Below are positions 12,109 through 20,561 of a stretch of 38,037 nucleotides of DNA, piece after piece. This stretch comes from Actinomycetota bacterium (GTDB taxonomy: Bacteria; Actinomycetota; Acidimicrobiia; IMCC26256; PALSA-610). The DNA is taken from positions 1 to 38,037 of the forward strand of contig PLBO01000042.1 in NCBI GenBank assembly GCA_003134555.1, written 5' to 3'. The notes under the pieces are model-generated. The model ran no database searches and was not told where the DNA came from. It saw only the letters and a program-made list of their open reading frames with translations. Numbering within the stretch: position 1 is the stretch's first letter; each line of letters begins with the position of its first letter. The position numbers were made by a program, and so were the translations under genes.

Positions 12109-14043
12109 ATGTCGCAGCAAGACCGTGTCTTCAACGGCCGTTACGAGCTGATCCGCCGGATTGCGAGGGGCGGCATGGCTGAAGTCTTCCTGGCCCACGA
12201 CCAGCTCCTCGACCGGCCGGTAGCCCTGAAGGTGCTGTTCCCGGAGCTCTCCATCGATCGCGCGTTTGTCGAGCGCTTCCGCCGGGAAGCCCAGTCCGCG
12301 GCGAACCTCTCACATCCCAACATCGTCTCTGTCTACGACTGGGGCGAAGAGGACGGTACCTACTTCATCGTCATGGAGTTCGTGTCCGGGCACTCGCTCT
12401 CGGCCGTGATCCGTCAAGACGGCTCACTGCTCCCCGACCGGGCCGCGTCCATCGGAGCGGATGTGGCCGCCGCGCTGGCCTTCGCCCACCGCAACGGGGT
12501 GATCCACCGCGACGTCAAACCGGGCAACGTCCTCATCGACGACGAAGGATCCGTCAAGGTCACCGACTTTGGCATCGCCCGGGCCAAAGGCGCCGATGAG
12601 GGACTCACGCAGACCGGCGCCGTCATGGGGACGGCAACGTACTTCTCCCCCGAGCAGGCCGAGGGCACCGCCGTCGACGCCCGCAGCGACGTCTACTCGC
12701 TCGGTGTCGTGCTGTACGAGATGGTGACGGGCCGCCCGCCGTTCGCGGGCGACAACCCGGTCACCATCGCGTACAAGCACGTGCGTGAAGAGCCGGTTCC
12801 GCCCCGGCGCATCAACCCCGCTATCCCGGCCGCGTTCGAAGCGGTGGTCCTCCAGGCCATGGCCAAGGACCGCGACCGGCGCTACGCCAGCGCCGACGAG
12901 TTACGCAACGACCTGCTCCGCTTCCGCCATGGGCGAGCGGTCGCGGCGGCGCCGTACGTGCCGCCTCCCGCCGACCTCACCGTCATGCAGCCGGCATACG
13001 AGAACGCGCCGACAAGCACCACCGTCCTCCCGGCCGCAGCCGCACTGCAACCGCCGCCGAACCAACGCACGTGGATCTATATCGTCCTGCTGGTCGTCAT
13101 GCTGCTCGCGCTCGCCGGTCTGCTCTTCGCCCTCGGCCGGAACCTGGGCCTCTTCGGCGGCAACAGCACAACGGCGGCAGTCACCGTGCCGTCGCTCACC
13201 GGCCTCGACAAGACGGTGGCGGAGTCCCAGCTCCGCAACGCCGGCCTGCAGTTCACCGAAGACCTCCAGGCGAACCCGGCCGTCGACGCCAACAAGGTCT
13301 TCGACCAAGACCCGAAAGCAGGCACGCAACTCCAGAAGGGCAAGTCCGTGGTGCTGAAGATCAGCACCGGCGCGGCGCTGGTCAAGGTCGTGGATGTCAC
13401 CAACCAGCCGACCGACCAGGCCCACGCCAGCCTCTCGAGCGCCGGCTTCACCGTCGGCCAGGACATCCAGCAGGCGAGTAGCACCGTGCCGTCGGGCACC
13501 GTGATCTCCATGAATCCACCAGCCGGTACCCAGATCGACCCCAAGGCGACCACCATCATCTTGACGGTGTCGTCCGGGCCGGCAACCGTGACCGTACCCG
13601 ACGAGCGCGGCAAGGACGTAGCCACGGCGGCCGCCGATCTTGGTCAGGCCGGCTTCCAGGTGCAGCAGCAGTCGCAGGCGTCGCCCACGGTGCCCAACGG
13701 AACGGTCATCACCACCAACCCGCCGCCCGCGGCGACCGCGCCCAAGGGCTCGATGGTCACAATCATCGTGTCATCCGGACCGCCGCAGCAGCCGACCGTG
13801 CCCCACGTGATCGGCGACCCGCAGGCCAATGCCGTCTCGGCCCTCCAGGCGGCCGGCTTCTCCGTCGCCACGCAGACCGTGACCGTCACGGACCCGAGCC
13901 AGGACGGGGTCGTCCAGCAGCAGAACCCGGCGGGTGGTACCCAGCAGCCGACCGGGACAACGGTGACCATCGCAGTCGGCAAGTTCGTGGCGACCACCAC
14001 GACGTCGATCCAGCCGACGACGAGTACTACCGCGTCCCACTGA
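12109..14043 (+). CDS. pknB: PknB: Ser/Thr protein kinase with four PASTA domains
   Basis: 644 aa. The kinase domain (about 12-275) has the Gly-rich loop [11 protein letters not shown], Lys41 (VALKVL), Glu60, the catalytic loop HRDVKPGNV with Asp135 and DFGIARA with Asp153. Its activation loop carries [17 protein letters not shown], with the paired Thr of PknB-type kinases. A juxtamembrane linker leads to one membrane helix (about 323-345). Four PASTA repeats follow outside the cell, starting near residues 360, 427, 494 and 563, and a Thr/Ser tail ends the protein. PASTA domains sense muropeptides or lipid II, and the kinase controls growth and division. The last 17 bp overlap the convergent trpG gene, an arrangement shared in order and orientation with mycobacteria. 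Confidence 0.96.
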
Positions 14044-14620
14044 GCGCGGCGGCGCCTTCGAGCCAGTTGCCCAGCAGGCGATGGCCGGCCGTGGTCAGGA
14101 TCGACTCGGGGTGAAACTGCACGCCCTCCACGGCCAGCTCGCGGTGGCGAAGAGCCATGATCGTGCCGTCGCCGGTCTCAGCAGTGACCTCGAGGACATC
14201 CGGCAGGCCGTCCCGCTCGACCACCAACGAGTGATAGCGAGTCGCCTCGAAGGGTGACGGCAGGCCGCGGAGCACGCCGGCGTCGGTGTGGCTCACCATC
14301 GATGTCTTCCCGTGCATGAGCTCGGCGGCCCGCACGACCTGGCCGCCGAACACCTCGCCGATGCACTGGTGGCCGAGGCACACACCGAGCAGGGGCACCA
14401 CTCCGGCGAACTCCCGGATCAGGTCGTTGCTGACGCCGGCGTCGACCGGTCGCCCCGGCCCCGGGGAGATGAGCACGGCATCGGGCTCGAGGCCCCGCAC
14501 GCCGTCGACCGTGATGGCGTCGTTGCGGTAGACAACCGGGTCGGCACCGAGCTCACCCAGGTACTGGACCAGGTTGTAGACGAACGAGTCGTAGTTGTCG
14601 ATCACCAGCACGCGCGGCAC
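14027..14620 (-). CDS. trpG: Glutamine amidotransferase subunit of anthranilate / aminodeoxychorismate synthase
   Basis: About 197 aa from GTG 14620 ([20 protein letters not shown]). Class I glutamine amidotransferase motifs are complete: oxyanion region ISPGPGRP, nucleophile elbow GVCLGHQ, and His/Glu of VQFHPESI. It releases ammonia from glutamine for the chorismate-using partner (TrpE or PabB), which is not in the window. TrpG and PabA cannot be told apart from sequence alone; the gene at this position in mycobacteria is annotated trpG. An upstream ATG at 14650 is possible but would overlap the crgA start codon. The gene converges on pknB with a 17-bp overlap. Confidence 0.9.
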
Positions 14621-14635
14621 GGCGCCATTGTCGCG

Positions 14636-14641
14636 TACTCT
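14636..14641 (+). promoter_or_regulatory. Candidate -10 box (TACTCT) for leaderless crgA
   Basis: TACTCT ends 7 nt before the crgA ATG with no ribosome binding site between, as expected for a leaderless mRNA. An identical hexamer lies 6 nt before the SDR start at 20618. The divergent trpG start is only 28 bp away. Confidence 0.35.
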
Positions 14642-14648
14642 TTCCGCC

Positions 14649-14882
14649 ATGCCCGAGAGCAAAAGCAAGCGGTCGCGCTACACGCCGCCGCCGCAGAAGA
14701 AGGCGCCGCCGTCGAAACTCTGGGTGCCGGTCGGGCTTACGACGCTGCTCGCCGCCGGCCTCGCCGTGGTGGTGACGAACTATCTGAACCTGCTTCCGGG
14801 CGCCGACACCGAGAACCGCTACCTCCTGCTCGGGATCGCTCTCATCAGCGGGGGCTTCATGATGGCGACGAACTACCGCTGA
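14649..14882 (+). CDS. crgA: CrgA: cell division regulator
   Basis: 77 aa from ATG 14649; a longer upstream frame is not needed. The protein has a basic, Pro-rich cytoplasmic head ([17 protein letters not shown]) and two membrane helices, about 27-45 and 58-74, joined by a short outer loop ([12 protein letters not shown]). This is the full CrgA layout, including the ending MMATNYR. In actinobacteria CrgA links FtsZ, FtsQ, FtsI and CwsA at the divisome. It is divergent from trpG, in the same order relative to pknB as in mycobacteria. Confidence 0.93.
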
Positions 14883-18332: not shown

Positions 18333-19793
18333 ATGGCGACGCCGAAGAAGCGCGGCCCCAAGGGCGGCACGACAACCTCGAGCTTCGGCGTCTCTCGTCG
18401 CGAGAATCACGACGCGACCCCGTTCTACGAGCGCTTCACCGCACCCGAGCTCTCTACCTCCGACGAAGTCGGCGGTCGCAAAGAAATCGACGACATCTTC
18501 GGTGACGACGCCCGGCACATGGACAAGGTCGACGACAACTCGGTCGCGCTCGTCGTCACATCACCGCCGTATTTCGCCGGCAAAGAATACGAGACGGCAC
18601 TCGGCGAAGGACACGTACCCGCGACGTACGCCGCGTATCTCGCGATGCTCGAAGAGGTCTTCGCCGAATGCGTGCGGACGCTCGAACCGGGTGGCCGGAT
18701 CGCGGTCAACGTGGCCAACCTGGGGCGCAAGCCCTACCGTTCGTTGTCCGGCGACGTGACTTGGATCCTGCAGGATCGGCTCCGATTACTGCTCCGCGGT
18801 GAAGTCATCTGGCTCAAGGCGCGCGGTGCAGCCGGATCTTGCGCTTGGGGCTCCTTTCAACGACCGGCAAACCCCGTATTGAGAGACCTGACGGAGCGGG
18901 TCATCATTGCCAGCAAGGGTCGATTCGACCGCGCATTGAATCCGCGTCGGCGTGCCAAGGACTCGTTGCCGTCCGAGGCATCGATCTTCCGCGACGAGTT
19001 CATGGAAGCAACCACCGACATCTGGGAGATTCCGCCGGAGAGCGCGAGTCGAGTCGGCCACCCCGCTCCTTTTCCGGTCGAGTTGCCGGAACGACTCATC
19101 CACCTCTACACCTACCGAGACGATCTGGTACTCGATCCGTTCATGGGCTCGGGGACCACGGCGGTCGCCGCAGTTCGAACGGAACGTCACTACGTCGGTT
19201 ACGACACCGACCCCGTGTACATCGAGAAGGCGAAGAAGCGCATAGAGCGCGAGAAGGCCGACCTCCTCCGGCGGCGAGAGTCGGACACAGAACCGCCCCG
19301 CGTCGTATTGCCGAGCACTCCGATCACGGCACCCGAAGGCGAAGACTTTCAAGCCCGCGCCGTTCGTGAAGGACTCGCGGCGCGCGACCTCGCGCGTGTA
19401 GCGCTCGAACAGTGCGGCTTCGTTGACATATATCCCAATGTCAACCTGCGGTCGGGCGTCGAGGTGAACTTCAGGGCGCAAGACCAATCCGGGAAGACGT
19501 GGTACTTCGACGTCTCCGGAGGTTTCACCTCAAATCGACCCGGGTTGCGTCGGACCGACACTCTCTGGAAGGCCCTCGGAAAAGCGGCTGTCTTGCATCA
19601 GGCGGAGAAGGAAACTCCGTTGATCTTGTTGACCACGCACGCGCCGGCGCCGAATAGCTCAGGCGACGCCGCGCTCAAGTTAATGAAGGGTCTGCGCAAT
19701 CCCATTCGCGATGTGATCGTGTTGAGCTCATCCGACGACCTCCAGCGGCTGCGCAGCTACGCACGCGGACACGCAAGCCGTCGGGCGCCGTAA
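18333..19793 (+). CDS. Beta-class DNA methyltransferase fused to an inactive PD-(D/E)XK-like domain
   Basis: 486 aa. The catalytic motif TSPPY (76-80) comes before the AdoMet motif DPFMGSGTT (268-276), the beta-class order; SPPY favours N4-cytosine, but N6-adenine is not excluded. Residues 81-267 contain the target recognition part (LKARGAAGSCAWGSFQRP). Residues about 335-476 form an extra domain that aligns over its length with the downstream restriction enzyme: GVEVNF against GVEIDR, and SNRPGLRRTDTLWKA against GSRPGLLRTDTLKKA. The nuclease residues are replaced: Asp44, Glu58 and Lys60 of the enzyme correspond to Asn379, Asp393 and Ser395. The domain therefore probably does not cut and may serve recognition or dimerisation (inference). 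First gene of a three-gene operon. Confidence 0.88.
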   Translation: MATPKKRGPKGGTTTSSFGVSRRENHDATPFYERFTAPELSTSDEVGGRKEIDDIFGDDARHMDKVDDNSVALVVTSPPYFAGKEYETALGEGHVPATYAAYLAMLEEVFAECVRTLEPGGRIAVNVANLGRKPYRSLSGDVTWILQDRLRLLLRGEVIWLKARGAAGSCAWGSFQRPANPVLRDLTERVIIASKGRFDRALNPRRRAKDSLPSEASIFRDEFMEATTDIWEIPPESASRVGHPAPFPVELPERLIHLYTYRDDLVLDPFMGSGTTAVAAVRTERHYVGYDTDPVYIEKAKKRIEREKADLLRRRESDTEPPRVVLPSTPITAPEGEDFQARAVREGLAARDLARVALEQCGFVDIYPNVNLRSGVEVNFRAQDQSGKTWYFDVSGGFTSNRPGLRRTDTLWKALGKAAVLHQAEKETPLILLTTHAPAPNSSGDAALKLMKGLRNPIRDVIVLSSSDDLQRLRSYARGHASRRAP

Positions 19794-19795
19794 AC

Positions 19796-20149
19796 GTGCC
19801 GGACCAGAGCCGGGCAGGGTGGCCCGGTCGGGTCGCAGTCGCAATCGTGGGCTCCGATCCGGCCCAGGTCTTTCTCGCAACCGACGAGGCGGTCCTCAGT
19901 CGCGTCCTCGCGCTGAAAGTCGTGGCGCGTCTCGATCCCGCTCTTCTCTCCCCCGGCGCGCTGCAACCAATCCGCGACGCGCTGCTCGAGGAGCGCTGGG
20001 CCGACGCCGTCGGTGAGTGGATACAGGCGACCGGCGAAGCGATCGACGCGTATCCCGACGAGGACGTTTGGTCGGAGTCTCGGCTCGACGCCGAGGTTGC
20101 CGCATTGGAGATTCGGCTCCAGCGAATCTTCGACGACCCTCATGAGTGA
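19796..20149 (+). CDS. Unknown 117-aa protein between methyltransferase and restriction enzyme
   Basis: GTG start 2 bp after the methyltransferase stop; the end overlaps the restriction gene by 8 bp, so translation of all three is probably coupled. The start (VAVAIVGSDPAQVFLATDEA) looks like a beta strand followed by helix. The rest is mostly helical and acidic, with DALLEERWADAVGEWIQATG and a C-terminal amphipathic helix (AALEIRLQRIFDD). I do not recognise the family, and it lacks a helix-turn-helix or a nuclease motif, so it is not an obvious controller protein. A subunit, specificity helper or inhibitor of the nuclease are all possible. Confidence 0.75.
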   Translation: MPDQSRAGWPGRVAVAIVGSDPAQVFLATDEAVLSRVLALKVVARLDPALLSPGALQPIRDALLEERWADAVGEWIQATGEAIDAYPDEDVWSESRLDAEVAALEIRLQRIFDDPHE

Positions 20150-20561
20150 CTTCCAAGCCTCGGCCGGCATCCAAGGCCGGCAGTTCGCCGAGCAGTGCGA
20201 CCAGTTGCTCACGCACGACGGTTTCGAATTGCATGGCCGGCAATTGTTGCGGAACGTGGGTGTCGAGATAGATCGTGTTGCTCGAAGCCCTCGCGGCGAC
20301 CTCGTTTGGTTCGAATACAAAGGCAGTGTCCAGGGATCGCGTCCGGGACTCCTCCGCACCGACACCCTGAAGAAGGCGATCGCGAACGGTGCGCTTCTGG
20401 CCGCGGAAGCCGACCGACATCCCTACGTCGTCCTCACGTCACATCTGCCCGACACGGGCTCCGGCGCGGCGATGCTTCGAGCCGCCCTGGAACTGGGCTA
20501 CCTCACCGACGTCATATGCATCTACACGCCGGCTGACGCAAACCGCCTGCGTGCCATGTAG
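20142..20561 (+). CDS. PD-(D/E)XK restriction endonuclease-like protein, 139 aa
   Basis: Start ATG 20142 overlaps the preceding gene by 8 bp; a longer frame to 20013 lies inside that gene. The core shows GVEIDRVA (Asp44), a short turn, then WFEYKG (Glu58, Lys60), the D...E-x-K arrangement of the PD-(D/E)XK fold. A long helix (LRTDTLKKAIANGALLAAEA) and strand (YVVLTSHLP) follow. It is small for a whole type II enzyme, so it probably acts as a dimer or with the methyltransferase. The same fold, without the catalytic residues, is fused to the methyltransferase upstream. Recognition sequence unknown. Confidence 0.8.
   Translation: MSDFQASAGIQGRQFAEQCDQLLTHDGFELHGRQLLRNVGVEIDRVARSPRGDLVWFEYKGSVQGSRPGLLRTDTLKKAIANGALLAAEADRHPYVVLTSHLPDTGSGAAMLRAALELGYLTDVICIYTPADANRLRAM

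Follow-up and report, generated by a model that had tools for sequence, protein, structure and literature searches.

The DNA methyltransferase M encoded in the 38,037-nucleotide stretch analysed here (the window) ends in a nuclease-like domain that is homologous to R, the small nuclease encoded in the same operon, and that has lost the catalytic residues R retains. The preliminary description saw in this domain a copy of M's own partner R; this is not supported, and the dead tail proves to be the usual condition in a widespread family of M enzymes. Comparison of the relatives indicates that the fusion and inactivation are far older than the window operon. It seems probable that the operon represents an old, mostly solitary methyltransferase provided with a clamp made from a retired nuclease, to which R as the cutter and the small protein S as an accessory were joined in a small Type II-like restriction-modification (R-M) unit.

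M, S and R are three plus-strand genes arranged head to tail. M (18333..19793, 486 amino acids) is a β-class N4/N6 DNA methyltransferase (PF01555, 1.8e-36; PADLOC MTase_II, 5.6e-83) with a C-terminal pseudo-nuclease tail. The Pfam match assigns its catalytic methyltransferase domain to residues 71-302 (18543..19238). The TSPPY motif is followed by DPFMGSG, and this order, with the SPPY motif IV preceding the FxGSG motif I, is that of the β class. The PD-(D/E)XK-like tail covers residues from about 337 to 476 (19341..19760). S (19796..20149, 117 amino acids) begins with a GTG codon 2 nt past the stop of M, and the start of R (R139; 20142..20561, 139 amino acids) overlaps the end of S by 8 nt. 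M and R are therefore neighbours, as is usual in Type II R-M systems, in the order M-S-R with S and R overlapping. The third small gene between them was rightly noted before, and the arrangement recurs in other genomes. Upstream of the operon, a Ser/Thr kinase bearing PASTA-like repeats and a small membrane protein resembling CrgA are encoded (12109-14043 and 14595-14882), which from a reading of the sequence looks like an ordinary actinobacterial cell-division neighbourhood.

The tail and R were aligned by BLASTP over 146 columns with 36% identity (61.6 bits, 8e-18), including the stretch PGL-RTDTL-KA. When the whole genome was searched with R, only R itself and the M tail (5e-13) were returned; the likeness is thus far above chance. 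The full-length alignment of the tail (about residues 335-476) with the 139-residue nuclease, as proposed in the preliminary description, was borne out, and the residue numbers given there are exact: D44, E58 and K60 of R correspond to N379, D393 and S395 of M. Through this full-length homology to R, a PD-(D/E)XK fold is predicted for the tail, which lacks the catalytic set of D, E/D and K expected of an active nuclease.

In the AF2 model of R (pLDDT 95), the elements follow the order α-β-β-β-α-β-α-β-α; strand 2 holds D44, and strand 3 the E58-x-K60 motif. The best Foldseek matches of this model in the PDB were all PD-(D/E)XK nucleases, namely NucS/EndoMS (probability 1.00), XisH, BstEII, BsoBI, Card1, Hjc and EcoO109I. 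The top three were of the NucS/EndoMS type, with 16-18% identity to NucS. The alignment behind the model also contained tails, so the fold test is a test of the whole family and not of R and the tail separately. The active site suggested earlier for R is therefore placed in a predicted PD-(D/E)XK core, and by its residues and modelled fold R is a predicted catalytically intact nuclease, in keeping with the D-E-K site of its complete relatives. No family match for R was found in Pfam or NCBIfam; it does not belong by sequence to a repair-nuclease family, and the likeness is at the fold level only. Searches of R, the tail, S and the archaeal R against PDB sequences, Pfam, NCBIfam and PADLOC, in part of the protein/library combinations, gave nothing significant. 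Plasmid and phage collections contained no relatives of R, and origin from a mobile element was rejected on this ground.

The catalytic triad was surveyed in relatives belonging to the class, to the phylum at large and to archaea. It was absent from all 111 tails fused to M, N-D-S being found in 54 and other broken triads in the rest. None of these tails has K at position 60, and in 84% of them N, S, P, G, A or T occupies position 44, where active R has the metal-binding D. The counter-example named in the preliminary description, a homologous methyltransferase with an intact D...E-x-K tail, was sought in this set and not found. Free-standing copies that group with R and have a complete site were D-E-K in 38 of 38 cases (about 32 unique). 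In two loci (L196:3914-5149 and L065:4928-6401), the M core and the tail are in different reading frames owing to a sequencing error or a real split; these are probable frameshifts, and their tail state was scored as unknown. A third type of copy, a free-standing broken relative of R (D-L-R), is encoded convergently with tailed M in a different family of the phylum (L186:4871-5582, L187:4654-5554 and L190, minus strand, 1890-2352). One R139 gene with an internal deletion and a frame break follows M and S genes that are intact (L076:7451-7663; L119 is from the same genome), where restriction appears to be in the course of loss while M and S stay.

The window genome has its named relatives in the Acidimicrobiia. 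The M family was found in 242 of 296 genomes of the class, mostly as a single copy. In the same sample, free R was detected in 6 genomes and the tail in 107, the latter being a low estimate because R served as the query. R139 is present in 6 of the tailed genomes, a second protein, R350, in 41, and neither in 60. R350 comprises about 340 amino acids, is unrelated in sequence to R139 and the tail, and shows the PD-(D/E)XK-like consensus EWkG...PaDlR.D...ScK. It has no Pfam family, and its PADLOC match (REase_II, 0.011) is weak. R350 lies directly 3' of M or S in 27 of 70 loci (L066 and 26 more) and was never found together with R139; it fills the same slot and is the commoner nuclease-like partner of the M family. 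In the sampled loci with neither nuclease, M is followed by ordinary genes, those of housekeeping type encoding HSP70, thiolase or ketoacyl synthase and others ADP-ribosylglycohydrolase, and in one case by a DUF222/HNH gene. By these counts M would be a class-wide, mostly solitary methyltransferase family.

A scan of genome contigs gave 24 R loci in Acidimicrobiia/Actinomycetota, partly the same as the six of the class sample and including one in a metagenome-assembled genome (MAG) labelled Acidobacteria; five relatives are archaeal. M of this family was present in all 15 R139-bearing genomes checked, and in 11 of them it was unlinked from R139. This co-occurrence is weak evidence alone, since 82% of the class has M (0.82^15 = 0.05), and adjacency of the genes is the stronger evidence. 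Eight loci with R139 unlinked from M (L092, L093, L096, L097, L100, L102, L103 and L105) belong to Aquihabitans-like genomes and partly share a chromosomal neighbourhood in which conserved large ORFs flank R139, an unusual setting for a restriction enzyme. In the complete genome of Aquihabitans sp. G128, S adjoins a member of the M family, and R139 lies at another place.

S gave no match in Pfam, NCBIfam or PADLOC. Its model (pLDDT 88) has an α/β fold, and a Foldseek search of the PDB returned no match under 0.001. The gene occurs in 27 of the 296 class genomes, always with a tailed M and directly after it, and 26 of the 27 also carry R139 or R350. By this association, S may be an accessory of the restriction side.

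In the tree of the nuclease-like domains, all tails form one clade (UFBoot/SH-aLRT 100/100). A seeming R within this clade (L098) proved to be an M tail cut off at a contig edge. Rooting of the M-core tree with archaeal M places tail-less M at the base. The 103 tailed M all fall into a single clade (122 rows, support 100) that also holds some tail-less M. The large trees were built with FastTree, and most of the genomes sampled are MAGs. These topologies are most simply read as one gain of the tail and a few losses, and given the losses the tail would be dispensable to some M. The archaeal R is active by its residues and convergent with a tail-less M. In one basal actinobacterial locus (L195), a tail-less M is followed directly by an active R on the same strand, which is plausibly the arrangement before fusion. 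From the state of these archaeal and basal actinobacterial systems it follows that a free active R and a tail-less M came first. Identity between R and the tail in the family alignment averages 30% within loci (34% for the window pair) and 30% across loci. Together with the single tail clade, this dates the fusion far back and means that the window R is not its recent source; a recent duplication of the window R into the window M was rejected for the same reasons. The sequence of duplication, fusion and loss of catalysis proposed in the preliminary description is supported by the polarity and by the single clade.

The tails are highly conserved at several positions: G61 and G69 (100% each), R67 (99%), R72 (94%), W77 (95%) and a basic residue at 82 (above 90%). 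They keep the noncatalytic residues that are invariant in active R (G61, R67, G69, R72, D74 and K78) and add a conserved set of their own (W55, D58, W77 and the basic residue at 82). This pattern fits a retained DNA-contacting face with a new role. A tail in decay was rejected on account of its own conserved signature over about 100 genomes. Since most relatives retain the tail without a matching cutter, the dead domain has probably taken on a function in the methylase; by analogy with CcrM, this would most likely be that of a clamp for DNA binding or dimerisation of M. It is very improbable that the tail cuts DNA by means of a non-canonical active site, which would make M a fused restriction-and-modification enzyme. 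PD-(D/E)XK families with relocated catalytic residues are known, and most tails retain D58, D74 and a basic residue at position 78. However, active R conserves D74 and K78 to the same degree, so that they offer no replacement site, and the substitutions at positions 44 and 60 also speak against cutting. Alternatively, the tail could be a docking module that forms a heterodimer with R, directly or through S, and either recruits the nuclease where sites are unmethylated or holds it back where they are methylated. PD-(D/E)XK enzymes often dimerise, the tail and R share a fold family, and the restriction of S to tailed M, nearly always with a nuclease gene, makes an M-tail/S/R assembly conceivable. 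Nevertheless, docking is a rather unlikely explanation. The 60 tailed genomes with neither nuclease imply that the tail is not there to pair with R, and 41 others have R350, whose sequence is unrelated to the tail. Furthermore, R139 adjoins tail-less M in two loci (L109 and L114), as its relatives do in L194, L195 and archaea, it is unlinked from M in 11 genomes, and R and the tail of the same locus are no closer than random pairs. Dimerisation with R, suggested in the preliminary description as the reason for the tail, is thereby disfavoured.

R is probably the restriction enzyme of the operon, its rival role being that of a methyltransferase-associated repair nuclease comparable to Vsr beside Dcm or to NucS/EndoMS, acting on mismatches or damage linked to methylated sites. 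The size of R is close to that of Vsr, and its three best structural matches are of the NucS/EndoMS type. Its gene lies apart from M and is stable in the chromosome of 11 genomes, and the lack of relatives on plasmids and phages points the same way. Against this, R occupies the slot held elsewhere by R350, which resembles restriction enzymes in size and motif, and the convergent or tandem pairing of R with M in the archaeal and basal loci is typical of Type II systems. The deletion and frame break in R of L076/L119 are likewise expected of dispensable defence genes. A repair function appears unlikely on this evidence.

The R139 system resembles Type IIP R-M systems in its separate adjacent or overlapping M and R genes, the small R with D...E-x-K and the M with TSPPY and DPFMGSG, and differs in that M contains a domain homologous to R. 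In ordinary Type II systems, restriction enzymes have no sequence similarity to their companion methyltransferases (PMC4081073, review). This usual state, which is not strictly defining, does not hold here, and through the common domain the M/R family is an exception to it at the level of sequence. Type IIC/IIG enzymes such as MmeI, BpuSI and TaqII also combine nuclease-type and methyltransferase domains in one chain, whereas the nuclease domain of M is C-terminal, small and inactive, with any cutting left to a separate active paralogue. M is not a Type IIC enzyme because its fused nuclease site is broken. With CcrM-type enzymes M shares the β-class core, the class-wide distribution usually without a restriction partner, and a C-terminal domain after a linker. 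The C-terminal domain of CcrM is SAND/PWWP-like and clamps the non-target strand (PMC6787082); the extra domain of M is a dead nuclease unrelated to it, and M is sometimes accompanied by R139 or R350. Vsr and NucS/EndoMS are, like R, small PD-(D/E)XK-type nucleases; the vsr gene adjoins a methyltransferase gene, and NucS is the best structural match of R. The similarity of R to them is at the fold level only, and R recurs as the partner of the M family. A literature search for a methylome of the class found one paper, in whose Acidimicrobiia bin no motif and no MTase were detected (PMC6329791).

In the proposed history, M would methylate a short DNA site, likely at N4 of cytosine to judge from its SPPY motif. 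Early in the actinobacterial lineage of M, a PD-(D/E)XK nuclease gene from next to M, either the original or a duplicate, was joined to M at its 3' end, and the fused domain lost its catalytic residues; the comparison of relatives shows both the fusion and the loss. The dead domain may have been kept for holding DNA or aiding the dimerisation of M, as the C-terminal domain of CcrM suggests. R, an intact member of the nuclease family of the tail, would be the current cutter. In relatives its slot is taken by the unrelated nuclease-like gene of about 340 residues or left empty, and S may act as a restriction accessory with M and whichever nuclease is present. There is some small chance that R and the tail, stemming from one nuclease ancestor, still read the same DNA site by the same surface, so that one copy cuts while the other guides methylation and the matched specificity was born by duplication, not by chance association.

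The analysis defines by sequence a methyltransferase family with a retired nuclease as its extra domain, together with the nuclease families R139 and R350 and the partner S, which have no convincing match in Pfam or PADLOC. How R and M enzymes without common ancestry come to recognise one site is an old question. Four natural states were found here: tail-less M beside active R, M with a dead R fused on, the two combined, and solitary M. With this series, one route to such matching becomes directly testable.
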